Assembly (NCBI RefSeq): GCF_014204975.1
Contig: NZ_JACHMM010000001.1
Span: 5,580,037 to 5,644,036, forward strand
DNA from: Jiangella mangrovi
GTDB lineage: Bacteria > Actinomycetota > Actinomycetes > Jiangellales > Jiangellaceae
Length of the DNA stretch: 64,000 nt
Direction of reading: 5' to 3'
Shown: positions 35,808-54,949 of the stretch, piece by piece
Numbering within the stretch: position 1 is the first letter of the stretch
How the letters are laid out: the number at the start of each line of letters is the position of its first letter
The notes under the pieces: generated by a model
What the model was told of the DNA's origin: nothing
What the model saw: the letters and a program-made list of their open reading frames with translations, nothing else
The model's database searches: none
Position numbers and translations under genes: made by a program

Positions 35808-36158
35808 GTCCGGAACATTACGTTGCGGAGGCATCGGGACGAGAATTCGGCGGATCTGTCCCAACCGGTGGTGAGTTCGCATTTGGACAACTAACGTGTG
35901 CACCTTGGAGGCCAGAGGTCGACCTCCGGAGGGATGCCGAAACCCGACTCGTCAGACCGAACCCCTTCGAGCCACAGCCCGCGGTGTGCGGACGTCCACC
36001 GCCATCGGCAACAGCGCAGTTTCGGAGTAATCTGCGTTGCTATTCGAGGGGCTCGGCGTCCGTGACGGGGAAGACCCGGGCAAGCACCTCGACGGATTTC
36101 GACTGACAAAGTGACGCGTGCCTGCCCCACCGGGGTGGCACCCCCGATGAGGGAGAAC
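35808..36158. other. Upstream region of the coiled-coil gene, no gene seen
   Basis: 351 bases between the epimerase (minus) and the coiled-coil gene (plus). It holds both promoters. A palindromic GAGGTCGACCTC occurs near 35917-35928. The AT-richer part near 36020-36045 (around GGAGTAATCTGCGTTGCTAT) is a likely promoter zone for the plus-strand gene, but I cannot fix the boxes. Confidence 0.4.
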
Positions 36159-37757: not shown

Positions 37758-40222
37758 CTAGAAATCCTGGCACTCGCCGCGCGTGGGGCCGCGGGTGTCG
37801 TTGCGGGCGCCGGTCACCGCGGGATCGTTGCCGGTGCAGGTGAGCGGCCCGGTGATGGTCGACGCGACCAGCCGGTTCGGGGCGCCGTTCGTGACGTTGC
37901 CGGTGAGCCGCACCGGGCCGGTGATCGTGGCGTGGTCGAGGTCGACCTCGCCCGTCGTGCCGCTGACGTCGACAGGCCCCGTGACTCGCGTGCCCATCAT
38001 CACCACCGACACCGCGCCGGACGAGCGGATCGGGCCGGTCACCGTCCCGCCGGACACGTACAGCGATCCGCCCGGCCGCACGTTCACCGGGCCGGTCACC
38101 ACCGCGTCGTCGAGGCAGGTGACGCCGTCGACGGTGACCGGGCCGGCCACGCTCCCCCGCAGCACCGTCGCGTCGGCGGCCTCGCACGGGCCGTGCACCG
38201 CGACCGCCGCCGTGATGGGCCCGGACGGCTCCACCGTCCAGCCGTAGTCGCTCTCGAAGCCGCCGTTGACCAGGTCGAGGCCGATGGTGCGGACGGCGTC
38301 GACGCCGTACTCGATGTCGAGCTCCGGGACGGCGTTCTTGGTGCAAAAACCGGAACTCCAGCTTCACCGAGTCCTTGCCCTGCACGAACTCCGTCGCGTT
38401 GATGGCGCCCTGGTGCTCCGAGCCCTGCATGTAGAACCAGGGCCACCAGTCGCCGGCGTCGCGGTCCCACAGCACGTCGCCGTCGATCAGGATCTGCTTG
38501 AAGTACTGGTCGTACTTCACCTGGTACGGGTCGGCGTGCCAGAAGTCGATCTCGTAGCGCGGCAGGCCGGGTTCGACGTCGACCTGCTGCCAGACCGACG
38601 CGCACGTCCCGGCCGGCACCGGGGTGTTCGCCGGCACCGTGAACTCCAGCCGGCCGTTGCCGTACATCGCGCGGTTCTCGGGCGACGTGCGCAGGCTCGG
38701 CCAGTCGCCGCCGCGGACCGGCGCGAACGGGAGGCCCTGGTAACGGGCGTAGCCGGCGGAGATCTCGTTGAAGACCCGTGTCGGGCGGTCCGGGTGGTAG
38801 ACGTCGATGTAGGGCTGCATGTTCGGCCCGCTCCGGTTCATCGTCCAGTCCGACGGAGTCTCGAACCCGCCGTTCACCACCGTCAGGCCGGAGCCGGTGA
38901 CGTCGTCGATGCGCAGGTCGTGCGGCCACCACCCGATGCCGGTCTGGTGGTAGAGCCGGAACGTGACGGTCGCCTCCGTCAGCCCGGCCAGCGCGTCGGT
39001 GAGGTCGACGGTGGCGTCGATCCAGGTGTCGCGGGCATCGCCGACGATGTCCTGGTTCCACACCACCTCGCCGTTCACCAGCACCTGCTTGAACTGGTAG
39101 CCGGTCAGCCCGCCCTCGTCGGGGTCGTGGTGGCGGAAGCTCAGCGTCTTGGTCCCGGCGGCGGGGTCGACGGCGACGACCTGCGACGCCGACGCGAAGG
39201 CGCCGTTGGCAGTGCTGACGAAGTTGCTGACGCTGAGACTCAGGCTGCCGTACCCGGTGTGGCCCCAGTGGTCCCAGCTCGGCGCATGCTTGTCCAGGTC
39301 GATCGGCCCGGCGTAGGCGATGACGCCGGTGATGCGGCCGTCGCGCACGTACGGCTCGGCGCGGTCGAGGACCTCCGCGGCGTAGCGCTCGTCGGGGTGG
39401 ATGATGCCGTCGAGGAACCGGCCGTTGTAGACCAGCAGCACGAGCTCCTGCCCGGCCGGCTGGGTCACCTCGAGCGCGGTGTCGAGCCGGTACTCCAGCT
39501 CCGTCGGGTCGATGGTGTTGGCGATGGAGTTGTACGGGTAGATGACGCCGTCGAGCGCGCCGTCGATGCGCTCCATGCTCTCGGGGTTGATCTCACCGTG
39601 GTACAGCGTGACGTACCACTTCAGGTCCGGGTTGACGGCGTCCTGCGCGGCCCGCACCTCGGCGAGGTACTCGGGGGTGAAGAGGGCCTGGTTCACCGGG
39701 CCGGACAGGAAGTCGTCGATGCCCCACGACTTCACGTTCGGGAACTCGACGGACAGCTCGGCGATGGCGCGCGCCCACGCCACGTAGTCCATGTCGAACG
39801 GACGGGAGCAGCGGCCGTCGAGGTGTGGCTCCGGGCGCAGGAAGCACTCCGACGGCGGGACGATGTAGACCATGATGTCGATGCCGGCGGCCTGGGCGGC
39901 CGGCATCGAACTCCTCGGTCAGGTCCTCCCAGTCGGTGGCCATGTCCCAGACGCCGTAGGTGTACATGGTGACGTTGAGCTGTTCCAGCCGCTGGATCAT
40001 CGCCGGGGTATCGACGTGGCGGTAGCCGTCGGTGCGCGGCTCCTCCTCGCAGATCAGCGACGCGACGGTGTTCCCGCCGGTCATCGCCGACAGGAAGGTG
40101 TCCGGTGGCAACGGCTCGGCGGCGGAGGGGACGGGGGCGGCTGCGGCTCCGCTCGCGGGCAGCAGGCCGAGCGCCAGCACGATGCTGGTGAGCAGGGCGG
40201 TCAGACAGGCCGATCGAGTCAT
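37758..40222 (-). pseudogene. Secreted glycosidase-like protein with carbohydrate-binding and bactofilin-like repeats, two frameshifts
   Basis: One protein read in three frames. Part 1 (ATG 40222 to about 39900) has a signal peptide (ACLTALLTSIVLALGLLPAS) and the start of a barrel (MYTYGVWDMATDWEDLTEEF). Part 2 (about 39906 to 38350) continues the barrel (AGIDIMVYIVPPSECFLRPE, KSWGIDDFLSGPVNQALFTP, YNGRFLDGIIHPDERYA) and two jelly-roll-like modules containing VVNGGFETPSDW. Part 3 (about 38345 to 37758) has another VNGGFE module and a beta-helix with repeated TGPV units. Shifts lie near 39896-39906 (one base) and in a run of five T on the minus strand near 38345-38349, where removing one T restores a smooth reading. 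Sequencing error or real decay are both possible. No GH family is recognised. It follows the FG-GAP gene by 42 bases. Confidence 0.75.
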
Positions 40223-40264: not shown

Positions 40265-42049
40265 TCAGAGCAGGAACGCCGAGGCGAAGGACCAGCCGGA
40301 GCCGGCCGGCTCGCGGGCGGTCCACGGGTCCGAGCCGTCCGACGAGCCGTCGTGCGGGTGCAGCCAGAGATCGCCGCCGGCGTCGCGGCTGACGAGGTCG
40401 GGCCGGCCGTCGCCGGTGACGTCGCCGGCGGCCAGCACGTCCGCGTCCGACCAGTCGCCGCCGACCTGCATCGGGGCCGCGCCGTCGGTCGGGTAGACCC
40501 AGAGCGTGCCGTCCTGCTCGTGGTCGACGAGGTCGGGGCGGCCGTCGCCGTCGACGTCGGCCAGCTTCAGCGTCACCGCCGTCGACCAGCCGCTGCCGGC
40601 CCAGCGCCGCCCCGCGGCCCACGGGTTCGAGCCGCCGCCGGTCGAGCCGTTGTGCGGGTAGATCCAGAGCTCGCCGCGGCGGTCGCGGGCCAGCAGATCC
40701 GGCTTGCCGTCGCCGGTGAGGTCGCCCAGCGCCAGCTCGGTGACGGTGTTCCAGCCGGTGCCGGCGAAGAACCGCGGCGCCGTCCACGGGTCCGACGCCG
40801 TCGCGCCGGTGTTCGGGTAGACCCAGAGCGTGCCGTTGGTCGCGGCTCGGTCGCGCGCCACCAGGTCCGGCCGGCCGTCGCCGGTGACGTCGCCGAGCAG
40901 GAGCGCGTTCTCGAACGCCCACCGCGACCCGGCCGCGAACCGCTCCGGCCAGGGGCCGTCGGCGCCGCCGCTCGCCGCCGTCGGGTACACCCACAGGTCG
41001 CCGGCGTGCGCGCGCCCCAGCAGGTCGGACCGTCCGTCGCCGGTGACGTCGGCGGCCAGCAGCGCGTCGGACGCATCCCAGCCGGTGCCGGCGGCGTACC
41101 GGGGGACGGTGTACGGGTTGGTCCCGCCGGGCGCGCCGCTGTGCGGGTACACCCAGAGCGCCCCGGACTCGTCGCGGATCACGACGTCGGGCCGCCCGTC
41201 GCCGGTCGCGTCGGCGGTGATGAGGATCGTCGCCAGGTTCCAGCCGGTGCCGGCGCCGTAGCGCGACGTGTACGGGTTGGCGGTGGTGGTCCCGTTGTGC
41301 GGGTAGATCCAGAGCGCGCCGGACCCGTCGCGCACGACGATGTCGCCGTTGCCGTCGCCGGTGACGTCGGCCGGGGTCATGACGGTGGCGAGGTTCCAGC
41401 CGGTGCCGGCCCAGTACCGCGGCCGGGTCCACGGGTTGCCCGAGGTCGCGCCGCTGTGCGGGTGGATCCAGAGCGTCCCGGCGGCCGCGCCGGGCTCGCG
41501 GGTCATCAGGTCCGGCCGGGCGTCGCCGGTGACGTCGGAGAGCAGGATCTGGTCGTAGGTGTTCCAGTTCGTCCCGGCGGACACCCGGGACGGCCACGGG
41601 TCGTCCTCGGACCCGGAGTTCGGGTAGATCCACAGCGTGCCGTTGCCGGCCTCGGGGTCGCGGGCGACGACGTCGGGCAGACCGTCGCCGGTGACGTCGG
41701 CGACCTGCAGCACGTCGGCGAAATCCCAGTCGCCGTCGGCCACGGTGAACGACGGCCAGGGGTTGGCGCCGGCGGGGCTGCCGTCGTGGGCGTAGACGCG
41801 CAGGGCGCCGGAGTCCGGGCCGGGATCGCGGACGACGGCGTCGGCCAGGCCGTCGCCGGTGACGTCGCCCGGCACCGGGACGGCGAGCGACCGGGCTCGC
41901 AACGACGACGGGGCGGGCGCCGACCAGGCGGCATCGAGGACGACGGTCCGGTGCGGCTTGGGACGGGGAGCGGCGGACGACGGCACGGCGGCGGCGCCGA
42001 CACCGGCGACCAGCACCGCGGCGAGCACGAGCGGAAGGGAGCGTCTCAT
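40265..42049 (-). CDS. Secreted FG-GAP/VCBS repeat protein
   Basis: Exported protein of 594 residues with a signal peptide (RRSLPLVLAAVLVAGVGAAA). The mature part is ten near-identical repeats of about 50 residues, each with a calcium-loop-like DVTGDGRPDLV and an aromatic segment such as GTLWVYPNSG. Such repeats build a seven-bladed propeller or tandem lectin-like fold and usually bind sugars or the cell surface; no catalytic domain is present. It lies 12 bases after the six-hairpin glycosidase gene and 42 bases before the frameshifted glycosidase, so all three form one secreted set, probably under the IclR-type site at 44591. Confidence 0.88.
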   Translation of the reverse strand: MRRSLPLVLAAVLVAGVGAAAVPSSAAPRPKPHRTVVLDAAWSAPAPSSLRARSLAVPVPGDVTGDGLADAVVRDPGPDSGALRVYAHDGSPAGANPWPSFTVADGDWDFADVLQVADVTGDGLPDVVARDPEAGNGTLWIYPNSGSEDDPWPSRVSAGTNWNTYDQILLSDVTGDARPDLMTREPGAAAGTLWIHPHSGATSGNPWTRPRYWAGTGWNLATVMTPADVTGDGNGDIVVRDGSGALWIYPHNGTTTANPYTSRYGAGTGWNLATILITADATGDGRPDVVIRDESGALWVYPHSGAPGGTNPYTVPRYAAGTGWDASDALLAADVTGDGRSDLLGRAHAGDLWVYPTAASGGADGPWPERFAAGSRWAFENALLLGDVTGDGRPDLVARDRAATNGTLWVYPNTGATASDPWTAPRFFAGTGWNTVTELALGDLTGDGKPDLLARDRRGELWIYPHNGSTGGGSNPWAAGRRWAGSGWSTAVTLKLADVDGDGRPDLVDHEQDGTLWVYPTDGAAPMQVGGDWSDADVLAAGDVTGDGRPDLVSRDAGGDLWLHPHDGSSDGSDPWTAREPAGSGWSFASAFLL

Positions 42050-42061
42050 GAGGCGATCTCC

Positions 42062-44563
42062 TTAGCGGCCGGGCTTGAGGACGATGACGTCATCGGCGGC
42101 GTAGCGCTGCCGGTTGACCAGGACCCACTTCAGGCCGGGGATGGCCGGCGGGTGCAGCAGGGTCCGGCGCGGCCCGTGGCCGTCGGCCCACGAGCCCTCA
42201 TAGGCGACGGTGAGCGACTGGCCGTCCTCGGACAGCCGGAACCGCAGCGACACCGGGCCGTGCAGCGTCGGCATCCGCTCGAACCGGGTCTCGTGGTCGT
42301 CGCGGATCCAGGCCAGCGGGCACAGCCGCAGCAGGTGGATCTCGTCGTCCACGAGGCTGTCGTCGATGACGGCGTGCCGTGCGGCCCAGGTGATGAGCGG
42401 CTGGACGAACAGCGTCCCGTACATCGCGTTGCGGTGCTCGCCGGAGATGAAGGTGTCCGGCGAGACGGCGCCGCTGATCAGGCCGTACATCCCCTCGAGG
42501 AAGCGGTCGCGGTCGCCGAGCTGCCAGGTGTGGAAGAGGTTCCAGCTGTAGCAGGGCTCGCCGCTGCTCTGCTCGTGGTCGAGGATGACGCGGTCGAGCG
42601 CGGTGTGGTGGTGCGGGTCGAAGACGCGGGTGTTCGGGCCGACGCGGAAGAAGTCGACGTACCCGCGCATCAGCGGGTCGTCGGCGGGGAGCAGGCCGGC
42701 CCAGACCGCCGTCAGCGCGCCGGTGTCGAACGCCTCGAGGAACGGCCACGGGCTGTCCGGCCCGATGAACTTGGTCGGCAGGACGGGGTGCTCGGTGCCG
42801 TCGGGGTGGGTCCAGGTCGGTGCGTCCTCGGCGGCGGCCCGCAGCGCGTCGGCGAACGCCGTGCGGAACCGGTCGGCGACGGCGGCGAACTCGTCCGCCC
42901 GCGGGTGCCCGAGCCGGCGCAGCAGCCGGACGGAGCTGGTCAGGCCCTTGTAGTTCCACACCTGGATCCAGATGGACTGCTGCTCGACGCCAGTGTCGTT
43001 GGACGCCGCCGCCGGCATCAGGCCGGGCACGCCGTCGTGCTCGGTGTAGTCGCAGGCACGCTTGATGAAGTCGCAGGCCGCGACGATCGGCTCCAGCCAG
43101 CGGTCCAGGAACGCCTCGTCGTGGCTGTACAGCGCGTGCCGGGCCGCGCCCTCGAGGATCGCCCCGTGGTCGCCGAGCCAGTCGAACGACTGCAGCGACA
43201 GCGGCGTCGCGAAGAACCCGGCGTTGCTGAAGTTCCGGTACGCCGCGCCCGGTGGCTGCCGCACGCCCTGCACGGCGCGGAACAGGTCGGTGTGCCGGTC
43301 GACCACCTCGTGCCGTCCGAGCAGGTCGAGGAACATGTGGCTGATCATCGACGTGGGTGTGCTCCACAGCAGGTCGTAGCCGAACGACCCGGTGAGGAAC
43401 GTGAACTGCCCGGTGTCGGGGCTCTTCTCGGCGATGATCTCGGCCAGCTGGACGCTGCGGCGGAAGAACTGGTCGACCTGCCGCTCCCCCGTCGAGATCG
43501 CCGACGCCGACGACGGCTGCGGCGACCAGAACGCCTCGCACTCGGCCAGCGCGCCGTCCCAGCCGAGCGCCCACGCGGCGTCGGCGTCGGCCCGCGGCTG
43601 CACCAGCATGGGCAGCATCACGTCGACGTGCGTGCCCTCCGTGGCCGGCACGGACAGCCGCAGGTCGTAGACGCCGGGGTGGCCCTCGGCCTCGACCAGC
43701 GCGATGGTCGCGCCGGCCGGGGTGCCGACGATCATCCGGACGGCGCCGGCCTCGTCGAACACGCGGACGGTGAGCGGCCGGCCGTCGGGGTTCCAGATGC
43801 GATCCGTGCGCAGCGACCCGGCGAGCGGCGCGGCCGACGGCGTCACCTGCATGGTGAGGAACGCCTCCTGCTGCTCCGGCGGGCCGACGAAGTGCTGCAG
43901 GTACACGCGGCTGAGGCGCAGCGCGAAGGTGAAGGTGTCGGGACGGTCGTGCTCGTCGACCCACTCGACGGCGTAGCGCTGCCAGGCATGGATCGGACCG
44001 CCGGGCTCGTCGACCGGCTGCCCGCCGGGCACGTGCGCGAACGAGTACTGCCGCAGCACCAGGCCCTCCTGGCGGCGCCACTCGGTCCACAGCACGGGCG
44101 TCTCGGTGTCCTCGCGCCAGCCCTGGATGCCGACGCCGTAGTCGCCCTTGTACTGGTAGTACGGCTCGTCGGCCAGCGGCGGGATGCCACCGCCCTGCGG
44201 CATCACCGGCGTCAGCTGGAAGTCCTTGCCGCGGTACTGCGCGAGGTAAGGCTTCAGCGTCGGCGCGCTGCTCGGCGGCAGCGCGACGGCCGGCTGGCAC
44301 ACCGTCGTCCCGTTGTAGAACACGTCGAACCGGAACAGGTGTCCCTTCCACCCGACCGGGGTCCAGACCTGGCGCTGCGGCGTCCACCAGGTCTTCGCCT
44401 GCTCAGCGGTCGGCTCGCCGGAGCCGTGCGGCCCCACGCCGGCGGCGGCGGTGCGTAGGGCGGGTCCGGGGGCGGCCGCGGCCACCCCCGGATTCGCGAT
44501 CAGCCCACCGGCGAGCGCGCCGCCGAGGGTCAGAGCCGTTCTTCGGGTCACGTGTGGCGCCAC
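42062..44563 (-). CDS. Tat-exported six-hairpin glycosidase-like protein
   Basis: An 833-residue protein. The N-terminus has a twin-arginine signal (TRRTALTLGGALAGGLIANP). Residues about 50-340 are beta-rich (FRFDVFYNGTTVCQPAVALP). Residues about 350-720 have the helical pattern of (alpha/alpha)6-barrel glycosidases: FTFLTGSFGYDLLWSTPTSM, WLGDHGAILEGAARHALYSH, DGVPGLMPAAASNDTGVEQQ and FDTGALTAVWAGLLPADDPL. A small beta domain ends the protein. Acidic residues in these motifs are candidate catalysts; the exact family is not recognised. The GTG start at 44563 follows GAGGAG at good spacing. It is the first gene of the secreted operon, with a candidate IclR operator 28 bases upstream. Confidence 0.82.
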   Translation of the reverse strand: MAPHVTRRTALTLGGALAGGLIANPGVAAAAPGPALRTAAAGVGPHGSGEPTAEQAKTWWTPQRQVWTPVGWKGHLFRFDVFYNGTTVCQPAVALPPSSAPTLKPYLAQYRGKDFQLTPVMPQGGGIPPLADEPYYQYKGDYGVGIQGWREDTETPVLWTEWRRQEGLVLRQYSFAHVPGGQPVDEPGGPIHAWQRYAVEWVDEHDRPDTFTFALRLSRVYLQHFVGPPEQQEAFLTMQVTPSAAPLAGSLRTDRIWNPDGRPLTVRVFDEAGAVRMIVGTPAGATIALVEAEGHPGVYDLRLSVPATEGTHVDVMLPMLVQPRADADAAWALGWDGALAECEAFWSPQPSSASAISTGERQVDQFFRRSVQLAEIIAEKSPDTGQFTFLTGSFGYDLLWSTPTSMISHMFLDLLGRHEVVDRHTDLFRAVQGVRQPPGAAYRNFSNAGFFATPLSLQSFDWLGDHGAILEGAARHALYSHDEAFLDRWLEPIVAACDFIKRACDYTEHDGVPGLMPAAASNDTGVEQQSIWIQVWNYKGLTSSVRLLRRLGHPRADEFAAVADRFRTAFADALRAAAEDAPTWTHPDGTEHPVLPTKFIGPDSPWPFLEAFDTGALTAVWAGLLPADDPLMRGYVDFFRVGPNTRVFDPHHHTALDRVILDHEQSSGEPCYSWNLFHTWQLGDRDRFLEGMYGLISGAVSPDTFISGEHRNAMYGTLFVQPLITWAARHAVIDDSLVDDEIHLLRLCPLAWIRDDHETRFERMPTLHGPVSLRFRLSEDGQSLTVAYEGSWADGHGPRRTLLHPPAIPGLKWVLVNRQRYAADDVIVLKPGR

Positions 44564-44697: not shown

Positions 44698-45162
44698 TCA
44701 ACGGACTCGGACGAGCGCCTCCACCTCGACCGGGCTGCCGGTGGGCAGTTCGGCGACGCCGATGGCCGACCGCGCGTGCAGACCGACCTCGGAGCCGAGG
44801 ACGTGCTGGACGTAGGCCGTCGCGGCGTCGGCGACCAGGTGCTGCTCGATGAAGCCGGGCGCGCTGGCGACGAAGACGGTGAGCTTGACGACCTCCGCCA
44901 CCTGCTCCAAGCTGCCGAGTTCGGTGCGCAGCGTCTCGAGCACGTTGGCCGCGCACTGCCAGGCGCACTGCCGGCCGGTCTCGAGGTCGACCTGGTCGCC
45001 GACGCGCCCGGACGCGATCAGTGCACCGTCGGGCCCGTTGGCGGTCTTGCCGGACGTGGCGACCAGGTCGCCGTACCGGCGGATGGCCGCGATGGACGGG
45101 CGCTGCGGCCCGGCCGGTGGCGGAGTGGCGGGCGCGGACGCGTGGCGGTCGTCGCTGGTCAC
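44698..45162 (-). CDS. RidA/YjgF-family protein
   Basis: A 154-residue protein of the RidA superfamily, which hydrolyses reactive enamine/imine intermediates or acts in related deamination steps. Recognisable parts are IRRYGDLVATSGKTANGPDG, QCAANVLETLRTELGSLEQV, VVKLTVFVASAPGF and SAIGVAELPTGSPVEVEALV. The RidA-type Arg (HARSAIGVAELP) is present. The GTG start at 45162 has AAGGAG upstream; a longer frame lacks one. The N-terminal 25 residues are low-complexity Ala/Pro. It is divergent from the IclR regulator, and its promoter contains site 2, so it probably belongs to the same regulon. Imine intermediates from the DapA-type enzyme are a possible reason. Confidence 0.87.
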   Translation of the reverse strand: MTSDDRHASAPATPPPAGPQRPSIAAIRRYGDLVATSGKTANGPDGALIASGRVGDQVDLETGRQCAWQCAANVLETLRTELGSLEQVAEVVKLTVFVASAPGFIEQHLVADAATAYVQHVLGSEVGLHARSAIGVAELPTGSPVEVEALVRVR

Positions 45163-45173
45163 GTGGACGTCTC

Positions 45174-45212
45174 CTTCAGACTGTCGAACTTGCCTACGGC
45201 AAACAGAAGATA
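45174..45212. promoter_or_regulatory. Candidate IclR operator, site 2
   Basis: CTTCAGACTGTCGAACTTG (45174-45192), then the dyad TTGCCTACGGCAA (45190-45202) and CAGAAGATA (45204-45212), in the 104-base gap between RidA and iclR. It is the least similar of the five 19-base sites (12 of 19 to site 4), but has the shared CAGAAGATA exactly. Confidence 0.6.
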
Positions 45213-45266
45213 GAGTGACACAGGGCAGATCCCGTAGGCTCGGGGCCTCGGACGCAGGGAGCACGT

Positions 45267-46079
45267 ATGCCGGGCAATGACGTCAACGAGGGCGGCGCGA
45301 GTCAGGACCGCGCGCCGTCGCCGGCGGTCGCACGGGCGCTGACGGTGCTCGAGACGCTGGTCGACTCCGACGAGGGCATGACCCTCACCGCACTGGCCAA
45401 GCGCACCAACATCCCGCTCGCCACGTGCGCCTCCATCGTCTACACGCTCGAGCAGCGCGGCTACGCCCAGCGCCGCGTGGTGGGCCGCAGCCACTTCTGG
45501 CGGCCCACGCTGCGACTCTACGGCCTGGCCACGCAACTGGTCCGCAAGGTCGACCTGTCGTCGGTGGCCCAGCGCGAGCTGCGCGAGCTGGCCGACCTCG
45601 TCGGCATGCCGGTGCACATCGGCGTGCTGACGGGCGACTCCGTCGTCTACGTCGCCAAGGCCGCCACGCCCGGGTTCATCCAGTTCGACACCTACCCCGG
45701 CAAGGTCGCGCCGTTCAACCTCACTGCGCTGGGCAAGGCCATCTCCGCGCACCTCCCCGAGCGCGAGCTCGAGCCGCTGCTCGGCCACCTGACGCCGGGC
45801 CGCGGCCCGCGCGCCGCCGAACCGACCCGCGAGGCGTTCCTGGCCGAGCTCGCCGACGTCCGCAAGCGCGGCTACGCCCTCGAGGACGAGGAGGAGCAGG
45901 CCGAGATCGCCTGCGTCGCCGCACCGTTCTTCGACGCCGACGGCCGGGTGGCCGGCGCGGTCGGCGTCACCGGGTTCTCCCGCGACCTCACCGGCCAGCG
46001 CCGCAAGGAGGCCCTGGCCGGCGTCGTCGAGATCGGCAAGACGGTCTCGCGCAAGCTCGGCTTCGACGACCTGCGCTGA
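45267..46079 (+). CDS. IclR-family transcriptional regulator
   Basis: A 270-residue regulator. The N-terminal winged helix contains ALTVLETLVDSDEGMTLTAL and the recognition region AKRTNIPLATCASIVYTLEQ (about 44-63). The effector domain (about 90-265) shows VGMPVHIGVLTGDSVVYVAK, FNLTALGKAISAHLPERELE and VAGAVGVTGFSRDLTGQRR. IclR proteins bind short inverted repeats and respond to small acids. The five similar sites around it, at 44591, 45174, 46127, 51602 and 52652, make it the likely controller of the whole 37.7-55.9 kb system. Confidence 0.93.
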   Translation: MPGNDVNEGGASQDRAPSPAVARALTVLETLVDSDEGMTLTALAKRTNIPLATCASIVYTLEQRGYAQRRVVGRSHFWRPTLRLYGLATQLVRKVDLSSVAQRELRELADLVGMPVHIGVLTGDSVVYVAKAATPGFIQFDTYPGKVAPFNLTALGKAISAHLPERELEPLLGHLTPGRGPRAAEPTREAFLAELADVRKRGYALEDEEEQAEIACVAAPFFDADGRVAGAVGVTGFSRDLTGQRRKEALAGVVEIGKTVSRKLGFDDLR

Positions 46080-46182: not shown

Positions 46183-47178
46183 ATGGTCACGGTCGCGCTG
46201 GTCGGCCTGGGTGACATCGGCCTCGGTGCGCACCTGCCGGCGCTGCTGCGCTCCGCCGAGGTGCGGCTGGTCGCCGTCGCCGACCCGGTCGCCTCGCACC
46301 GCGATGCGGCGTCCGCGCTGGTGGACGGCGTTGTCGCCGTCGGCTCGAGCCTCGACGACGCCCTCGCCACCGGGCCCGACGGCGTCGTCCTCGCCACGCC
46401 GCCGTGGGCCACCCCTGAGCTCGCCATCGCCGCGCTGCGGGCCGGCAGGTTCGTGCTGGCCGAGAAGCCGGTCGCGACGTCGGTGGCGGCCGCGGCGGTC
46501 TACGACGCGCTGACCGCCGCCGAGCGGGCGCGGCTGCAGATCGGCCTCACCTACCGGCACGACCCCGCGATCCGTCGGCTCGAGAGCTGGATCGGCGACG
46601 GTGTCCTCGGCGGCCCGCTGCTGGTGCGGGCGCACATCTACGACGAGCGGCGCGACCCCGCCGACGGCGAGCACCTGGACCGCATCCGCGGCACGCTCGC
46701 GCACGGGATGCCGGTCGTGCACGAGGGTGCGCACGTCTTCGACTGGCTGGCGCACCTGCTCGGGCCGGGCGGGCTGAGCGTCGACGACGCCTGGGCGCTG
46801 CGCACCGACGCCGACCTCCCGGCGCCGAACCTCACCGGCGCTCGGCTGAGCCACCCCGCCGGGCACCGCGTGCTCGCCGAGTTCGGCTGGCTCACCGACG
46901 CGCTCCCCCGCTGCGAGCTGACGTTCCTCGGGCCGCGCGGGCTGGCGACGCTGGACGGCGCGACGTTCGACCTGCGGCTCGAGACGGCCGCCGGCGAGCA
47001 GACCGTCGTGTTCCCCGGCGAGCGCGGGCCACGCTGCTTCGACCTGCAGGTGGCCCGGTTCGCCGCGCTGGTCCGCGGCGACACCGTGGCCCCCGATCCC
47101 GACCTCGACGCCGGGCTGGCGGCGCTCGCCGTCGCCGAACGGGTCGCCACCCGTGCCATGGACGGAGTCACCGCATGA
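46183..47178 (+). CDS. Gfo/Idh/MocA-family oxidoreductase
   Basis: NAD(P)-dependent sugar dehydrogenase-like protein of 331 residues. The N-terminal Rossmann fold starts VTVALVGLGDIGLGAHLPAL (3-22). The family motif EKPVATS is at about 95-101, followed by a beta-sheet substrate domain with candidate catalytic His in MPVVHEGAHVFDWL. It probably oxidises a cyclic sugar to a lactone or keto-sugar in the cytoplasm. GGGAGGG precedes the ATG. The end overlaps the creatininase-type gene (ATGA), and site 3 lies upstream, so it begins the plus-strand catabolic operon. Confidence 0.9.
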   Translation: MVTVALVGLGDIGLGAHLPALLRSAEVRLVAVADPVASHRDAASALVDGVVAVGSSLDDALATGPDGVVLATPPWATPELAIAALRAGRFVLAEKPVATSVAAAAVYDALTAAERARLQIGLTYRHDPAIRRLESWIGDGVLGGPLLVRAHIYDERRDPADGEHLDRIRGTLAHGMPVVHEGAHVFDWLAHLLGPGGLSVDDAWALRTDADLPAPNLTGARLSHPAGHRVLAEFGWLTDALPRCELTFLGPRGLATLDGATFDLRLETAAGEQTVVFPGERGPRCFDLQVARFAALVRGDTVAPDPDLDAGLAALAVAERVATRAMDGVTA

Positions 47179-47915
47179 CGCTGCTGCGCTGGGCCGACGT
47201 GTCCCGCGAGACGCTGAACGAGGCGCTGCCGGAGGCGCTCGTGGTGCTGCCGGTCGGCGCCACCGAACAGCACGGCCGGCACCTGGCCACCGGCACCGAC
47301 GCGCTGCTGGCGGCGACGGCGGCCGAGCGCGCCGCCGCCGTCGCAGCCGAGCGGGCGGCCCGCTCGCTGGTCCTCGCCCCCACGCTCTGGTTCGGCGCGT
47401 CGGACCACCATCTGCCGTTCGGCGGCACGCTGTCGCTGACCCCCGAGACGCTGCTCGCGGTGCTGGTCGACCTGCTGCGCTCGGTCGCGGAGTCCGGCGG
47501 GCGCCGGGTCGTCCTGGTCAACGGGCACGGCGGCAACGTCGGCGTCTGCCACGCCGCCGCGGCCGCCGCCTCGACCCGGCACCGGCTCGCCGTCGCGCAC
47601 GTCGACTACTGGCGCTTCGCGGGCAACGGCGGCGCGGACGGCGTCAACGTCCCCGGGCACGCCGGCGAGTTCGAGACGTCGCTGGTCGCCGCCGTCCGCC
47701 CGGAGGCCGCGACCGGCCCGGCCGAGCCCCGGGAGACTCCGCCGCATGCCAAGGCCACCACCGGCGCCACCGTCCACGCCGCCGAGCTCTGGTCCGCCAT
47801 CGACGGCTACACCGACCACCCCGAGCGGGCGAGTGCCGAGCACGGCGGCGCCTGGCTCGACACCGTCGTCGCCGGCCTGGCCGACTGCCTCGCCGGCCTG
47901 ACCGAGACTCTGTGA
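47175..47915 (+). CDS. Creatininase-family amidohydrolase/lactonase-like protein
   Basis: A 246-residue metal-dependent hydrolase. Metal-binding residues are visible in GATEQHGRHLATGTDALLA (Glu, His, Asp), GASDHHLPFGG, LVNGHGGN and GHAGEFETS. The family opens cyclic amides such as creatinine or dehydrates formamides; some members sit in sugar pathways. Following a dehydrogenase, opening of a lactone or lactam-like ring is plausible (inference). It starts within the upstream stop (ATGA) and ends 7 bases before the first amidohydrolase. Confidence 0.85.
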   Translation: MTLLRWADVSRETLNEALPEALVVLPVGATEQHGRHLATGTDALLAATAAERAAAVAAERAARSLVLAPTLWFGASDHHLPFGGTLSLTPETLLAVLVDLLRSVAESGGRRVVLVNGHGGNVGVCHAAAAAASTRHRLAVAHVDYWRFAGNGGADGVNVPGHAGEFETSLVAAVRPEAATGPAEPRETPPHAKATTGATVHAAELWSAIDGYTDHPERASAEHGGAWLDTVVAGLADCLAGLTETL

Positions 47916-47922
47916 GGACCGC

Positions 47923-48681
47923 GTGATCGACTTCCACACCCACACGCCGGCCTGGAACACCATCAGCTGGCTCGGCGGCGCGACGTTCGGGGTCGACGAG
48001 TTCGTCGGCTTCATGGACGCCAGCGGCATCGACCGCGCGGTCGTGCTGAGCCACGACGGCCTGTTCAACCCGAAGCCGGAGGCCAACGACGAGCTGGCGG
48101 CGTTCGTCCGCGCCTACCCGGACCGGCTGGCCGGGTTCGGCACCGTCACGCCGCGCGACCCGGACGCCGTCGCCGAGACCGAGCGGATGGTCGGCGAGCT
48201 GGGCCTCAAGGGCATGAAGCTGCACCCGTGGCTGCAGGGCTTCAGCATGCACGAGCCGGCGCTGGACCCGATCTGCGAGGTCGTCACGGGCGCCGGCGGC
48301 ATCCTGCTCAGCCACGACGGCACCCCGCCGTACTCGACGCCGTCGCAGATCGCCGCGCTGGCCCGGCGGCACCCGCGGCTGCCCGTGGTGCTGGGCCACG
48401 GCGGGCTGCACGACCTGTGGCGCGAGGCGCTGGCGATGACCCAGGAGACCCCGAACCTCTACCTGTGCATCTGCGGCACGCCGCCCTACGCCGCCCGCAC
48501 GATCCTGGCCGAGGCCCCGCGCGAGAAGGTGCTCTTCGGCACCGACGCCGGGCTGTCGGACAAGGCCAGCCAGGACTACGCCGCCGCGCGGGTCCGCGAG
48601 ATCGACGGCTGGGGCATCACGGCGGAGCAGAGGCACGCGATGCTGGTCGAGAACCCGGCGCGACTGCTGGGGGCGGCATGA
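47923..48681 (+). CDS. Amidohydrolase (ACMSD/amidohydrolase-2 type), copy 1
   Basis: Cytoplasmic TIM-barrel metal hydrolase of 252 residues. All five expected metal ligands are seen: HxH in IDFHTHTP, His in LLSHDGTPPY, His in VLGHGGLHDLW and Asp in LFGTDAGLS. Related enzymes open sugar lactones or decarboxylate ACMS-like acids. The start is the GTG at 47923. Its stop overlaps the start of the enolase-type gene (ATGA). With the dehydrogenase and dehydratase around it, lactone hydrolysis is the best guess. Confidence 0.85.
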   Translation: MIDFHTHTPAWNTISWLGGATFGVDEFVGFMDASGIDRAVVLSHDGLFNPKPEANDELAAFVRAYPDRLAGFGTVTPRDPDAVAETERMVGELGLKGMKLHPWLQGFSMHEPALDPICEVVTGAGGILLSHDGTPPYSTPSQIAALARRHPRLPVVLGHGGLHDLWREALAMTQETPNLYLCICGTPPYAARTILAEAPREKVLFGTDAGLSDKASQDYAAARVREIDGWGITAEQRHAMLVENPARLLGAA

Positions 48682-49782
48682 CGGCGACGATCGCCGCCGT
48701 CCAGACGGCCGCCGTCAGCCTGGAGGCGCACCCGGACCTCGTGGTCCACGGCGCCCGCGGCGCGCACGACCGCTCCGACTTCCTGCTGGTCAAGGTCGTC
48801 ACCAGCGACGGCGTCGAGGGGTTCGGCGAGGTCAGCGCGACGCCGATCTGGAGCGGCGAGGACGGCGTCAGCGCACGCCACTTCGTCGAGACGATCCTCG
48901 CGCCGGCGCTGGTCGGCCGGCCGCTGGCCCCGGTCGGCGGGCTCGAGGACCTCATGGACACCGCGTTGGCGCGCAACCCGTTCACGAAGGCCGGCGTCCT
49001 CGATCGCACTGTGGGACGCGTGGGCGCGCACGCTCGGCGTCCCGCTGGCGGTCGCGCTGGGCGGGCCGTACCGCACCGAGATCCCGGTCAAGCTGTCGCT
49101 GTCCGGCGACGGCGAGAAGCTCGAGCGTGCGCACGCTGCCGCCGTCGCCGCCGGGTTCGGTGCGTTCAAGGTCAAGGTCGGGCTGGGCGTCGACGGCGAC
49201 GTCGAGCGGTTCGCGCACGCCCGGCAGCTGGTGGGCGAGAAGACGTTCCTCGGCATGGACGCCAACGGCGGCTGGTCGCGGTCCGAGGCGGCGCGGGCGA
49301 TCCGCGCGCTGACGCCGTACGGCCCGGCTTTCGCCGAGCAGCCGGTGCGCCCCGACGACCTGGCCGGGATGCGGTCGCTGCGCGACCTCGGGCTGCCGGT
49401 CGTCGCCGACGAGTCCGTGTTCGGCACCGACGACCTCGTCCGCGTGGTCGAGGCCGGCGCCGCCGACGTCGTCAGCCTCTACGTCGGCAAGAGCGGCGGG
49501 CCGGGCCGGGCGGTCGCGATGGCCGGCCTCGCGAGCGCCTTCGGGCTGGACGTGCTGATCGGGTCCAACGGCGAGCTGGGTCTCGGCGCGGCCGCCCAGC
49601 TGCACGTCGCCGCCGCGCTGCCGCGGCTGTCGGCCATTCCGTCGGACATCATCGGCGCGCACTACTACGCCGAGGACATCCTGGCCGAGCCGCTGGCCGG
49701 CGACGGCGCCGTCGTGCGGCTCGGGACGTCGCCCGGCCTCGGCGTCACCCTCCGAGACGACCTGCTGCGGGAGTTCCGATGA
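48678..49782 (+). pseudogene. Enolase-superfamily (mandelate racemase/muconate lactonizing) enzyme, one frameshift
   Basis: The N-terminal capping domain reads from ATG 48678 (ATIAAVQTAAVSLEAHPDLV, ARNPFTKAGV) to about 48998. The barrel continues in the next frame (ALWDAWARTLGVPLAVALGG) through FKVKVG, the metal ligands in LGMDANGGWS, FAEQPV and VADESVF, and YVGKSGG, to the stop at 49782. The span is 1105 bases, one more than a multiple of three; dropping one C at 48998-48999 gives a smooth 367-residue protein with a complete active site. The family dehydrates acid sugars or epimerises acids after proton abstraction next to a carboxylate. Either a sequencing error or a recent mutation. It lies between two amidohydrolases with ATGA overlaps at both ends. 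Confidence 0.82.
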
Positions 49783-50660
49783 TCGTCGACGTGCACGCGC
49801 ACACCCCCACGCACCGCGACGCCGTCCCCGACGACGAACGGCGGGTCTACACCGGCTGGCGCACCGACCGCGCGGTGACGACGACCAACTCGTGGGCCGA
49901 CTACGACGAGGCGATGGCCGACGCCGACGTCTCGATCGTCTTCAACATCGCCGTCGACGATCCCGAGGCCGCCACCGGGCTGCCGTACCGGCCCGAGGAC
50001 ACCAACACCTCGACGGCGGCGTTCGTCGCCGCCGACCCGGCCGGGCGCATCGGCTTCATGTCCGTCGACCCGACCCGCGCCGACGCCGTCGAGGAGGCCG
50101 AGCGCTGCCGCGAGCTGGGCCTCGTCGGCGTCAAGCTCGGCCCGAACTACCAGGACTTCGACCCGCTGTCGCCGCGGGCCACCGCGTTCTACGGCTACTG
50201 CGAGCGCGAGGGGCTGCCGATCCTGTTCCACCAGGGCGCCTCGCCCATCCGGCACGCGCCGCTGCGCTACACCTACCCACTGGTCACCGACGAGATCGCG
50301 CTCGCCTTCCCGGAGCTGCGCATCGTCATGGCGCACATGGGCCACCCGTGGGGCAAGGAGACGGTGGTGACCATCCGCAAGCACCCGCACGTGTACGCCG
50401 ACGTCTCGTCCATCTACCTGCGCCCGTGGGTCTGCTACGAGTCGCTGCTGGCCGCCGTCGAGTGGGGCGCGGCGCACAAGCTGCTGCTCGGCTCGGACTT
50501 CCCGATCGCCAACACCGGCGAGGCCATGGCCGGGCTGCGCCGGGTCAACGCGATCACCGAGGGCACCGCGCTGCCGCGGATCCCCGACGAGGTGGTCGAG
50601 CAGATCATCCACGCCGACGCGCTGGGCGCGCTGGGCCTGTCCGTGAAGGAGACCCCGTGA
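49779..50660 (+). CDS. Amidohydrolase (amidohydrolase-2 type), copy 2
   Basis: TIM-barrel metal hydrolase of 293 residues with intact ligands: HxH in IVDVHAHTPTH, His in LFHQGASP, His in VMAHMGHPWG and Asp in LLGSDFPIAN. Also typical is VGVKLGPNYQDFDP. It resembles members acting on lactones or aromatic acid derivatives; substrate unknown. It begins in the stop of the enolase-type gene (ATGA), and its own stop overlaps the next start (GTGA). Upstream extension of the open frame through the frameshifted gene is not coding for this protein. Confidence 0.86.
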   Translation: MIVDVHAHTPTHRDAVPDDERRVYTGWRTDRAVTTTNSWADYDEAMADADVSIVFNIAVDDPEAATGLPYRPEDTNTSTAAFVAADPAGRIGFMSVDPTRADAVEEAERCRELGLVGVKLGPNYQDFDPLSPRATAFYGYCEREGLPILFHQGASPIRHAPLRYTYPLVTDEIALAFPELRIVMAHMGHPWGKETVVTIRKHPHVYADVSSIYLRPWVCYESLLAAVEWGAAHKLLLGSDFPIANTGEAMAGLRRVNAITEGTALPRIPDEVVEQIIHADALGALGLSVKETP

Positions 50661-51388
50661 TCATCGACGCCCACGTGCGCCTCGGGCCCGGCCGGTCGGC
50701 CGAGCTCGCTGTGGCCGAACTGGCCGAGACCATGGACCGGCTCGGCATCGACCGGGCGATGATCGCGGCGGGCGAGTACGCGACGGCCTGGGACAACCGC
50801 GGCGGCAACGATGAGGTGACGGCGGCAGCTGCGGCCTCCGACGGCCGGCTGGTGGCCTACGCCGTCGCCAACCCGTGGGCCCGAGCGGACGCCGTCGCCG
50901 AGCTGGCGCGGGCCCGCGACCTCGGCGCCCGAGCTCTCGCCGTCGACCCCGCCCTGCAGGGCTTCGACCTGCTCGACGGGCTGGTCGATCCGCTGCTGGC
51001 GTTCGCGCAGGAGTCCGGCTGGCTGGTCTACGTGCGGACCGGGACGCCGCCGCACGCAGTCCCGCTGCCGCTGGCCTCACTGGCGAGGCGCTGGCCGGCG
51101 CTGACGTTCGTGATGGGCCGCAGCGGCGCGACCGACTTCTGGATCGACGCCGCGCCGGCGCTGCGGCACGCGCCGAACCTCTACGCCGACACCAGCTACG
51201 CGCCGTGGGACACCGTGCTCTCGGAGTTCGCCCGCGACCCCGAGATCGGTGCCGGCCGCTTGGTGTTCTCGACCGACGCGCCCTACACCGTGCCGTCGGC
51301 CGAGCTGGCCCGGATCACCGACTGGCCGATCCCCGACGGCGACCGCGCCGCCGTGCTCGGCGGCACCCTGGCCCGCCTCCTCGGCTGA
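50657..51388 (+). CDS. Amidohydrolase-like protein lacking most metal ligands, copy 3
   Basis: A 243-residue protein of the same fold as its two neighbours (IIDAHVRLGPG, LGARALAVDPALQGFDLLDG, PNLYADTSYAPWDT). The metal site is largely gone: the first motif is AHVR instead of HxH, the second position reads YVRTGTPP, the third VMGRSGATDFW, while the final Asp remains (FSTDAPY). It may be a non-catalytic partner, bind no metal, or use another mechanism. GTG start in the upstream stop (GTGA). It is the last gene before a hairpin. Confidence 0.75.
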   Translation: MIIDAHVRLGPGRSAELAVAELAETMDRLGIDRAMIAAGEYATAWDNRGGNDEVTAAAAASDGRLVAYAVANPWARADAVAELARARDLGARALAVDPALQGFDLLDGLVDPLLAFAQESGWLVYVRTGTPPHAVPLPLASLARRWPALTFVMGRSGATDFWIDAAPALRHAPNLYADTSYAPWDTVLSEFARDPEIGAGRLVFSTDAPYTVPSAELARITDWPIPDGDRAAVLGGTLARLLG

Positions 51389-51650: not shown

Positions 51651-52622
51651 ATGGCAGCACTGGACACTCGGCCGACACCGGAGGGCGGCCCCGTGGCCGG
51701 CGACGCGGCGCAGTTGGTGCGTGGCGTCTCGCCGGTGCTCGAGGTGCCGTTCCACGCCGACGGCGCGGTCGACGTCGAGGGCTTCGGCCGGGTCGTCGAC
51801 TACGTGCTCGGCACCGGCGTCAGCAGCGTGATGTTCCCCGGGTTCGCCTCGGAGTACCACAAGCTCTCCGAGGCCGAGCGGGCCGAGTTGACCGAGGTCC
51901 TGCTGTCGCGCACCCGTGACCGCGCCGACGTCGCGGCCATCGTCGCCGTCCAGGACCACGCCACCCGGCTGGCGGCGCACCGGGCCCGGGCCGTCGTCGA
52001 CGCGGGCGCCGACCTCATCAACCTGCTGCCGCCGCACTACCTGTCGCCGTCGCGGCGGGCGATCCAGGAGCACGTCGGCGCCGTCCTGGCCGCCGTCGCC
52101 CCGACCGCGGTGGTGCTGCAGTACGCGCCGTCGGAGACCGGCACCAGCCTCGACGCGGCGACCCTGCGCGAGCTGGCCGCCGAGCACCCCAACCTGCGCC
52201 TGGTGAAGGCGGAGTCGAGCCCGCCCGGGCGGCTCATCGCCGAGCTGGCCTCCGGGCAGCCCGCGCTGCCGGCGGTCGAGGGCTACGCCGGCGTGCAGTT
52301 GCCCGACGCGATCCGCCGCGGCGCCGTCGGCACCCAGCCGGGCTGCTCGTTCACCGAGATCTACGTCGAGATTTGGCGCCGGTTCGCGTCCGGCGACCAC
52401 GCCGGCGGTGACGAGCTGCACCGCCGCCTGCTCCCCTACATCTCCTACTGGATGCTCGACACCGAGCTGATCATCGCGGCCGAGAAGCTGATCTCGGTGC
52501 GCCGCGGGTTGTTCGCCGACCCCTACTGCCGCGAGCCCGGCCACCGTCTCGACGCGGAGGAGATCCGCATGGTCGACCGGTTCCTCGCCGAGTTCGACGG
52601 CATGCTTCCCCACCTCGGCTGA
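51651..52622 (+). CDS. Dihydrodipicolinate synthase (DapA) family aldolase/dehydratase
   Basis: Class I aldolase-type TIM barrel of 323 residues. The Schiff-base Lys is K186 in LRLVKAESSP, and the catalytic Tyr is Y158 in LQYAPSE. The usual GTTGE loop is replaced by FPGFASEYH, so it is not a lysine-pathway enzyme. Relatives cleave or dehydrate 2-keto-3-deoxy sugar acids or N-acetylneuraminate. In this set, the likely substrate is the product of the enolase-type dehydratase, giving pyruvate and an aldehyde, or a keto acid semialdehyde. GGAGGG precedes the ATG; site 4 and the hairpins separate it from the previous genes. Confidence 0.88.
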   Translation: MAALDTRPTPEGGPVAGDAAQLVRGVSPVLEVPFHADGAVDVEGFGRVVDYVLGTGVSSVMFPGFASEYHKLSEAERAELTEVLLSRTRDRADVAAIVAVQDHATRLAAHRARAVVDAGADLINLLPPHYLSPSRRAIQEHVGAVLAAVAPTAVVLQYAPSETGTSLDAATLRELAAEHPNLRLVKAESSPPGRLIAELASGQPALPAVEGYAGVQLPDAIRRGAVGTQPGCSFTEIYVEIWRRFASGDHAGGDELHRRLLPYISYWMLDTELIIAAEKLISVRRGLFADPYCREPGHRLDAEEIRMVDRFLAEFDGMLPHLG

Positions 52623-52691: not shown

Positions 52692-54035
52692 ATGAAGACG
52701 ATGCGATTCGTCGTCCCGCTCGCCGCCGGGTGCCTCGCGCTCGCCGCGTGCAGCGGCGGCGACGACGGCGACACCACGGACGCCGGACCCGACGCGGCGA
52801 GCTGGCACGAACAGATCGAGGGTTCCCCGCTGGAGGTCGGCGTCCTGTCGGCCGAAGGCACGCCGGGCCTCGCGGTCCTGCAGGAACTGGCCGACGGCCT
52901 CGAGGCCGACTACGACGGCACCGACGTCACGCTGACGTTCGCCAACACCGACGCGCGTCCCGGCATCGAGCAGCGCTGGCGCTCCGGCGACCCGCTCGAC
53001 GTCGACTACGGCATGTTCGACGGCACCAACCCGGCGTTGACGGTGTGGGCCGACGACGGCGCCCTTCTCGACCTGCGGCCGTACCTCGAGGCGAACGACC
53101 CCGAGACCGGCACGCCGTGGCTGGACCGCTTCAGCCCGCAGGTCCTGGAGTTCATGGAGAACCCGTCCGACGGCGGCATCTACGGCGTGCCGTCCGAGCT
53201 CTCGCTGCACGTGCTGTTCTACAACGCCGGGCTCTTCACCGAGCTGGGCATCGAGCCGCCGCGTACCTGGGACGACCTGCTGGCCGCGAACACCGCGCTG
53301 AAGGCCGCCGGGGTCGACCCGATCGCCGTCACCGGCCTGTTCGAGCCGTACATGGGCATGTGGAGCGACCACCTGTGGCTGCGCACCGTCGGCTACGACG
53401 CCGCGCGGGCCGTGCTCACCGGCGGCGAGGGCCACATCACCGACGACCCCGGCTTCCTCGAGGGTCTCGAGATGCTGCAGCAGCTGCGCGACGACGGCGC
53501 CTTCCTCACCGGCTTCGAGGGCACCGACTTCACCGCAGCCCAGGCCCAGTTCTTCCAGGGCGACGCCGGCATGATCCTCATGGGCAGCTGGCTGGTCAGC
53601 GAGATGTCCGACGTCATCCCCGCGGACTTCCAGCTCGGCGTCGTCCCGTTCCCGACGGTCGAGGGCGGCGCCGGCGACCAGGGCGCGGTCATGGCGGCGC
53701 TGCAGGAGATCTCCGTCGCCGCCGAGAGCGAGAACATCCCGCTGGCGCTCGAGTGGGCCCGCCGGCTCACCAGCGTCGAGACGCAGACGCAGCGCGCCGA
53801 GGAGATCGGTGAGGTGTCCGCCGTCGTCGACGTGCCCAGCCCGCCCGGCATCCCCGGCATCGACCAGGTCGTCGCCGACGCCGAGTCGCTGGAGCCGCGC
53901 GACTACGGCATCGTCCAGAGCCCGGCCAACGAGGTGATCTACCCCGAGATCGCGCGGCTGCTCTTCGGCGAGCAGGATGCCCAGCAGACGCTCGAGCGCC
54001 TCGACGAGGGGCTGCGCCGGGTTCACGGCAACTAG
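52692..54035 (+). CDS. Sugar ABC transporter substrate-binding lipoprotein
   Basis: CUT1-type solute-binding protein of 447 residues with lipobox LALAAC (Cys20) and an acidic linker. Family features: DVTLTFANTDARPGIEQRWR, YGVPSELSLHVLFYNAGLF and GDAGMILMGSWLVSEM. The start ATG 52692 has GGAAGG upstream. It is followed closely by two permeases and preceded by site 5. It probably captures the oligosaccharide released by the secreted enzymes at 37.8-44.6 kb. No ATPase gene is present, so a shared one is expected. Confidence 0.92.
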   Translation: MKTMRFVVPLAAGCLALAACSGGDDGDTTDAGPDAASWHEQIEGSPLEVGVLSAEGTPGLAVLQELADGLEADYDGTDVTLTFANTDARPGIEQRWRSGDPLDVDYGMFDGTNPALTVWADDGALLDLRPYLEANDPETGTPWLDRFSPQVLEFMENPSDGGIYGVPSELSLHVLFYNAGLFTELGIEPPRTWDDLLAANTALKAAGVDPIAVTGLFEPYMGMWSDHLWLRTVGYDAARAVLTGGEGHITDDPGFLEGLEMLQQLRDDGAFLTGFEGTDFTAAQAQFFQGDAGMILMGSWLVSEMSDVIPADFQLGVVPFPTVEGGAGDQGAVMAALQEISVAAESENIPLALEWARRLTSVETQTQRAEEIGEVSAVVDVPSPPGIPGIDQVVADAESLEPRDYGIVQSPANEVIYPEIARLLFGEQDAQQTLERLDEGLRRVHGN

Positions 54036-54070
54036 GGTCACGCGGGCAGCAGGAATCGAGAGGAGTCACG

Positions 54071-54949
54071 ATGCACCGAGCCGCGCAACGCCGCATCATC
54101 ATCCCGTTCCTGCTGCCCGCGCTCCTGCTGCTGGGGGTGTTCTTCCTCTATCCCCTGGTGCGCACGGTCGACATCTCGTTCACCGAGTGGACCCGCACCG
54201 GCAGCTACCACTACGTCGGCGTCGAGAACTACACCAGGGTCGTCGACGACCCCGGCTACCTCAACGCCCTCAAGAACGCGTTCCTGTTCACTCTGGTCGG
54301 TGGCTGCATGCTGTTCCCGGTGGCCATCGCGATCGCGTGGGCGCTGAACCAGCGCATCCACGGCGAGCGGTTCTTCCGGTTCGTGGTGTTCGCGCCGGTG
54401 GTGCTGAGCGCCGCCGTCGTCGCACTGATGTGGAAGTTCGTCTACCACCCGACGCTCGGGCTGATCAATCCCGCGCTGGAGGGACTCGGGCTCGGGGCGC
54501 TGGCCCGCACCTGGCTCGGCGACGCGGCCACAGCGCTGCCGGCGGTCGCGTTCGTCACCGTCTGGCACGGCATCGGCATCTGGGTGGTGCTGCTGTCGGC
54601 CGGGTTCGAGCGGCTGCCACCGGACGTGCTGGAGGCCGGGCGCATCGACGGCGCCGGCGAGTGGCGGCTGTTCCGCAGCGTCATGCTGCCGATGCTGCGC
54701 GACCTGTTCCGGATCCTGGTGGTGCTCTGGATCGTGCAGAGCATGCAGGCGTTCGCGTTCGTGTTCATCATGACCGGCGGCGGGCCGTTCGGGTCGACCG
54801 ACATCGTCGGGACCCTCATGTACCGGGTGGCGTTCGAGCGCTCGGAGTTCGGCTACGCCGCGGCCATGGGCGTCGTCCTCGTCGTGATCATGCTGATCGT
54901 GGCGCAGCTGGTCAACAAGGTGATGAAGCGCGATGAGCTCCAGTACTGA
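54071..54949 (+). CDS. Sugar ABC transporter permease, MalF type
   Basis: Inner-membrane permease of 292 residues with about six segments (first IIIPFLLPALLLLGVFFLYP). The ATPase-contact loop is VLEAGRIDGAGEWRLFRSVM. GAGAGGAG precedes the ATG. Its 3' end overlaps the next permease by 17 bases. Works with the binding protein upstream. Confidence 0.92.
   Translation: MHRAAQRRIIIPFLLPALLLLGVFFLYPLVRTVDISFTEWTRTGSYHYVGVENYTRVVDDPGYLNALKNAFLFTLVGGCMLFPVAIAIAWALNQRIHGERFFRFVVFAPVVLSAAVVALMWKFVYHPTLGLINPALEGLGLGALARTWLGDAATALPAVAFVTVWHGIGIWVVLLSAGFERLPPDVLEAGRIDGAGEWRLFRSVMLPMLRDLFRILVVLWIVQSMQAFAFVFIMTGGGPFGSTDIVGTLMYRVAFERSEFGYAAAMGVVLVVIMLIVAQLVNKVMKRDELQY

Follow-up and report, generated by a model that had tools for sequence, protein, structure and literature searches.

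The reverse-strand gene at 40222-37758 of the window (the whole 64,000-nucleotide stretch of Jiangella mangrovi DNA analyzed here) is one coding region interrupted by two one-base length changes, near 39906 and at 38345-38349. The evidence leans, though not heavily, toward a product that is an exported TIM-barrel protein, most likely acting on an extracellular polysaccharide or glycoside on behalf of the adjoining gene cluster, and toward very recent breaks. The barrel belongs to a rare family that none of the libraries we used could name; this is the sole novelty of the locus, whose genetics are otherwise ordinary. Among the papers listed by our literature search, none dealt with the barrel gene or its cluster.

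The preliminary description, made from the letters of the window, had proposed that the gene was split by two frameshifts, and comparison with Jiangella anatolica GTF31 (G004, NZ_POTW01000097.1; loci L002 and L018) bore this out. The J. anatolica ortholog is a single uninterrupted 818-codon frame in the same syntenic place, about 92% identical, within surroundings that are collinear with the window for about 26 kb. When this frame was used as a tblastn query, the three window pieces were matched consecutively in three frames, with one residue left unmatched at the first join and an eight-residue overlap at the second. Identity to the ortholog was 87-90% for the N-terminal piece and 92-93% for the middle piece. 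The first break had been read as one changed base near 39900, but the DNA alignment showed a difference in length, with the window one base longer. The second had been read as an extra T in a five-T run near 38347, and there the description was right: the break falls within the run (AAAAA on the plus strand), where the window is again one base longer. Because the close J. anatolica ortholog encodes a single frame, we read the three pieces as one protein whose frame is broken in the window and intact in its relative, as in a pseudogene. The source genome is a single contig of 7,162,500 bases. The frames are long and open, as would be expected if the frameshifts were programmed or if the locus encoded two or three distinct functional proteins; this is nonetheless highly improbable, given that the sole close ortholog found is one frame rather than a set of separate proteins and that the middle piece starts inside the barrel, without its first strands. 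The pieces, the breaks, and the neighboring genes are listed in the table.

Features of the window around the barrel gene, with the basis for each assignment
Feature	Position	Strand	Basis or remark
Palindromic MITE-like repeat, ~205 bp, just past the barrel gene stop codon	37530..37746		Inverted arms of 88 nt
C-terminal piece: last part of the final sandwich, then the TGPV beta-helix module; stop codon at 37758	37758..38348	-	ORF, tblastn
Second frame break, in a five-base homopolymer	38345..38349	-	DNA and tblastn alignments
Middle piece: remaining TIM barrel and beta-sandwich modules	38350..39906	-	Ortholog identity and ortholog model
First frame break, with one extra base relative to J. anatolica	39900..39915	-	DNA and tblastn alignments
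N-terminal piece: signal-peptide-like start (by eye) and first barrel strands	39907..40222	-	ORF and translation
FG-GAP repeat protein, next gene upstream of the barrel gene	40265..42049	-	Pfam
833-codon protein, export-like start, weak oligosaccharide amylase match	42062..44563	-	NCBIfam E 0.004, far below cut-off
RidA-like (endoribonuclease L-PSP family) protein	44698..45264	-	Pfam
IclR-type regulator	45267..46079	+	Pfam
Gfo/Idh/MocA dehydrogenase	46183..47178	+	Pfam
Creatininase-family hydrolase	47175..47915	+	Pfam; NCBIfam below cut-offs
Amidohydrolase 2 family protein	47923..48681	+	Pfam
Enolase-superfamily (MR/MLE) gene, frame broken at 48998	48678..49782	+	Alignments; Pfam on the 3' part
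Two more amidohydrolase 2 family proteins	49779..51388	+	Pfam
DHDPS/aldolase-family protein	51651..52622	+	Pfam
Sugar ABC importer: binding protein and two permeases	52692..55874	+	Pfam (genes at 52692 and 54071); second permease from position

To describe the architecture of the uninterrupted protein, we used an AlphaFold2 model of the J. anatolica ortholog (seven-row alignment, mean pLDDT 71.7). The model predicted an eight-stranded TIM barrel with strands at 41-301 that alternate with helices, the layout of a (beta/alpha)8 barrel, followed by two beta-sandwiches (323-442 and 521-644) and a C-terminal beta-helix (683-794). The barrel modeled alone gave a pLDDT of 78.9 and a pTM of 0.84. The barrel and beta-helix that had been read from the letters were thus recovered in the ortholog model, but the jelly-roll modules, described as several, came to two predicted sandwiches.

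The beta-helix of TGPV repeats had also been called an unrecognized architecture, which did not hold up: of 148 class genomes, 27 contain homologs of the tail, and many of these homologs are parts of frames that are much longer. Six tail carriers were scanned; in one, the open frame also encodes a GH53 galactanase domain, and the other five gave only weak propeller-type matches. The tail matched bactofilin PF04519 weakly (E 6e-4, residues 667-749; 20.4 bits, with a second score of 20.0, against a cut-off of 27.9) and so fell short of membership in that family. The repetitive beta-helix is common to the bactofilin fold and the window tail; however, bactofilin is a cytoskeletal protein, whereas the TGPV tail is a C-terminal module of larger proteins. 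The sandwich module also occurs in a heparinase II/III-like protein; this sharing, and that of the tail with the GH53 protein, speaks for modules of carbohydrate use.

By sequence, the barrel had no above-cut-off match in Pfam or NCBIfam and no PDB sequence match, and one distant homolog of it matched GH42 at an E of 0.08, below the cut-off. Four fold searches, for each of which the best 50 matches were listed, returned mostly glycoside hydrolases of many families and a few unrelated proteins. With the whole model, the best Z among these listed matches was 17.5, and with the barrel it was 15.2; dozens of other rows lay within 1 of these values, and with Z values so tied, no single family stood out among them. 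By predicted fold, the barrel resembles glycoside hydrolases in general. It has in common with the TIM-barrel glycoside hydrolases among the fold matches (structures of GH5, GH113, GH164, GH1, GH39, and GH191) a predicted eight-stranded barrel and a presumed extracellular carbohydrate setting, but it differs from them in showing neither detectable sequence kinship nor a conserved Glu pair at strands 4 and 7. When strands from the predicted model were placed on a ten-row alignment, Asp167-Asp168, directly after strand 4, were invariant in 10 of 10 rows and strand 7 carried a near-invariant Tyr263; Glu276, 13 residues past strand 7, was invariant in seven of the rows but not across all ten. With an Asp-Asp at strand 4 and no invariant Glu at strand 7, the alignment does not show the clan-A catalytic pair of Glu at the ends of these two strands. 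GH84/GH20/GH18-type enzymes have an acidic pair after strand 4, which the adjacent Asp residues at the end of strand 4 of the barrel may resemble. Structures of human O-GlcNAcase, GH20, and GH18 are among the many tied Foldseek matches, but the barrel does not match any such Pfam family.

Some of these results would also suit a barrel protein that is not a glycosidase, which might be exported to bind carbohydrate or to serve a structural role, or might be a TIM-barrel enzyme with a different chemistry: there is no sequence family match, the clan-A Glu pair is not conserved, and barrels other than glycosidases, among them a sugar epimerase and pyruvate kinase, appear in the fold matches. Set against this are the two adjacent Asp residues in every row of the ten-row alignment, the predominance of glycoside hydrolases among the listed fold matches, and the accompanying modules and neighboring genes of carbohydrate use, and we regard a non-glycosidase as unlikely.

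The barrel gene forms the end of a sugar-import/oxidation cluster. Oxidative (non-phosphorylating) sugar clusters combine a dehydrogenase, a lactonase-type amidohydrolase, an enolase-superfamily enzyme, a DHDPS-type aldolase, and a sugar ABC importer, and the same families stand side by side in the window, so that we presume the two to be alike in pathway. The creatininase-family gene and the three amidohydrolases are not known to belong to those oxidative sugar pathways. The 833-codon protein between the FG-GAP and RidA-like genes gave no PDB sequence match at E 0.01. From the modules, the signal-peptide-like start, and the neighborhood, we infer the following course of events. The product of the barrel gene, at present or until very recently, would be a single protein of about 820 residues that is exported and consists of a putative TIM-barrel catalytic domain, two carbohydrate-binding-type beta-sandwiches, and a C-terminal beta-helix module. 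Outside the cell, this protein would cut a polysaccharide or glycoside while the sandwiches hold the substrate. The ABC importer would take up the product sugars, which the dehydrogenase, hydrolases, enolase-superfamily enzyme, and aldolase of the cluster may then oxidize and cleave.

Of the 12 Jiangella genomes examined, 7 have the cluster next to a DivIVA-like gene (36111-37430) and 5 do not; in one of these 5 (G001), the site lies at a contig end, and absence there means that no close relative of the binding protein was found. Only two of the seven cluster-bearing genomes, J. mangrovi and J. anatolica, have the barrel gene at the cluster site, and it is absent from the site in the other five. 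The gene is therefore accessory within Jiangella. A tree built from 11.8 kb of cluster genes split into two groups: J. mangrovi and G011 on one side, and on the other G008 together with J. anatolica and its neighbors in the tree, G009, G010, and G003. In a smaller tree, drawn from two flanking genes, several inner nodes were poorly supported, and we relied on the cluster tree and on the split common to both. Together, the tree and the presence pattern imply that the barrel gene was lost at least three times or was transferred between lineages. In G008, an insertion sequence occupies the place of the gene, and beside it is a possible 21-bp remnant of the gene's last 21 bases; 1 of 5000 shuffles reached its score, a count that flatters the match since the test was aimed at a resemblance already seen by eye. 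A search for remnants of the whole gene in the five cluster-bearing genomes without it gave nothing clearly above shuffles. By eye, a short inverted repeat, different from the palindromic repeat of the window, was seen at the place of the missing gene in G011 (L068 4248-4398) and G009 (L070 3034-3186).

A paralog of the barrel, 468-469 residues long, 40-42% identical, and without an evident signal peptide, was found in J. mangrovi, J. muralis, J. rhizosphaerae, J. endophytica, and Micromonospora yasonensis. Its neighbors include importer genes and, variably, an aldose epimerase and enzyme families of the window cluster. At one locus (L023, the only one assigned by Pfam), the importer, aldose epimerase, and enolase-superfamily genes adjoin; by likeness of translations, IclR, Gfo/Idh, creatininase, and amidohydrolase genes lie near the paralog in two other Jiangella, and several of them do so in Micromonospora. 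The linkage of a paralog to an aldose epimerase points to a further role for this barrel in the cytosol, on sugars that have been taken up. The J. mangrovi paralog locus (L017, G000:C1:4400000-4416000), where a second importer accompanies the paralog and the aldose epimerase, stops after the aldose epimerase, as does that of J. muralis (L020), and both are without the enolase-superfamily, IclR, and Gfo/Idh genes that come after the aldose epimerase in L022 and L023.

The barrel family is rare. In a phylum-wide sample, it was present in 1 of 396 genomes, J. mangrovi itself, and in a class-wide sample, where at most two candidates were scored per genome, in 9 of 393, three of which matched in the sandwich region only. 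A scan of one genome per species gave 7 loci. A homolog in Fodinicola feengrottensis (L024 8158-9696) is also spread over several frames; few genes are callable in that record, which is perhaps a poor assembly. We tentatively propose, as a possibility that falls short of an even chance, that the barrel represents a glycoside hydrolase family not yet classified, whose active site is an Asp-Asp. Such a family would comprise exported multi-module forms and 468-469-residue forms lacking a signal peptide, would go together with a conserved uptake-and-oxidation cluster in a few actinomycetes, and would have been lost repeatedly in Jiangella. If it is a true enzyme family, an unassigned activity would be added to polysaccharide breakdown by soil actinomycetes, and the family would have exported and probably cytosolic members whose gene neighbors help to guess the substrate.

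The barrel gene is not the only broken gene of the cluster: a third one-base insertion, at 48998, breaks the enolase-superfamily gene. This gene is intact in all six other cluster-bearing genomes (367-368 residues in G011, G008, G009, G003, and G010, and open in J. anatolica), and the J. mangrovi genome contains no second close copy of it (one match at E 1e-60 or better). To obtain a background rate, we took the genes called in the complete Jiangella genome G008 and matched them, at 60% identity or more, to 850 kb of J. mangrovi sequence; the barrel gene, for which G008 has no counterpart, falls outside this count. Among 315 genes (329 kb), the insertion at 48998 was the sole frameshift, and the reverse comparison showed none among 317 genes. 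A smaller first set gave the same picture, with one frameshift, again in the enolase-superfamily gene, among 214 genes (232 kb) and none among 213 in reverse; on this smaller set, 54 of 80 simulated insertions were recovered. We rejected a generally poor assembly, since the only frameshift in the 315 genes belongs to the same cluster as the barrel gene. At the background rate, the chance expectation of two breaks in one 2.5-kb gene is, by arithmetic, about 0.01. Two breaks in one gene are therefore unexpected and point to a local cause, either disuse of the cluster or a weak patch of assembly.

Selection was estimated between J. mangrovi and J. anatolica. The dN/dS was 0.21 for both the middle piece (518 codons) and the tail piece (194 codons), within the range of about 0.09 to 0.52 for neighboring genes, and was higher, at 0.47, for the first piece (102 codons); rows for the flanks and the second permease that had cut-off or wrong matches in some genomes were left out. 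At columns where homologs decide the direction of change, the window carries 3 derived changes and J. anatolica 4. R56C, in the first piece, is unique to the window, in a column that is invariant in all seven other homologs with a letter there. By these comparisons, the pieces show purifying selection, and neither dN/dS, lineage counts, nor family-invariant columns revealed relaxed selection after inactivation. A long decay is unsupported, given the dN/dS of 0.21 in two pieces and the 3 versus 4 changes at conserved sites. With the selection signal intact, the insertions are either very recent or not real.

The decision between recent loss and local assembly error is near even. Recent loss is favored by the concentration of the breaks in one pathway and by the absence of the barrel gene from related genomes, and we give recent mutational loss an even chance of accounting for the breaks. 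Assembly error is favored by the intact selection signal and by the kind of change seen: each of the three length changes is an insertion, and two fall outside homopolymers, a pattern that may fit some kinds of sequencing error as well as it does mutation. If the three insertions are errors in a locally weak stretch of the assembly, the barrel and enolase-superfamily genes would be intact in the organism, an explanation that we place just under even chance. It would agree with the purifying selection on the barrel pieces, with the absence of excess change at conserved columns, and with the state of the enolase-superfamily gene, which is intact in the six other cluster-bearing genomes, has no second close copy in J. 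mangrovi, and carries 4 nonsynonymous and 16 synonymous changes on the J. mangrovi branch versus 19 and 24 on the G011 branch. However, the genes between the breaks are intact, which would require the error to be local, and the comparison with the one complete relative found no frameshift outside the cluster; a uniformly poor assembly would not be expected to put three breaks into one cluster when the background is close to zero. Should the breaks be real, the window shows a catabolic cluster that is just beginning to be lost; should they not be, the genome needs local correction before the metabolism of the strain is modeled.

The palindromic repeat just past the barrel gene stop codon also occurs elsewhere. 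It gave 70 matches in the J. mangrovi genome, a count made over both strands, so that the number of copies is lower. Four other genomes (G001, G011, G005, and G006) had 57-89 matches, and three (G003, G009, and G010) had none. At two loci, L136 (G001:C386:3400-5100) and L137 (G006:C93:3700-5165), palindrome arms in opposite orientation lie about 1.2 kb apart and flank a similar gene, which in L136 has a Pfam match to the antitoxin-like AbiEi_4.
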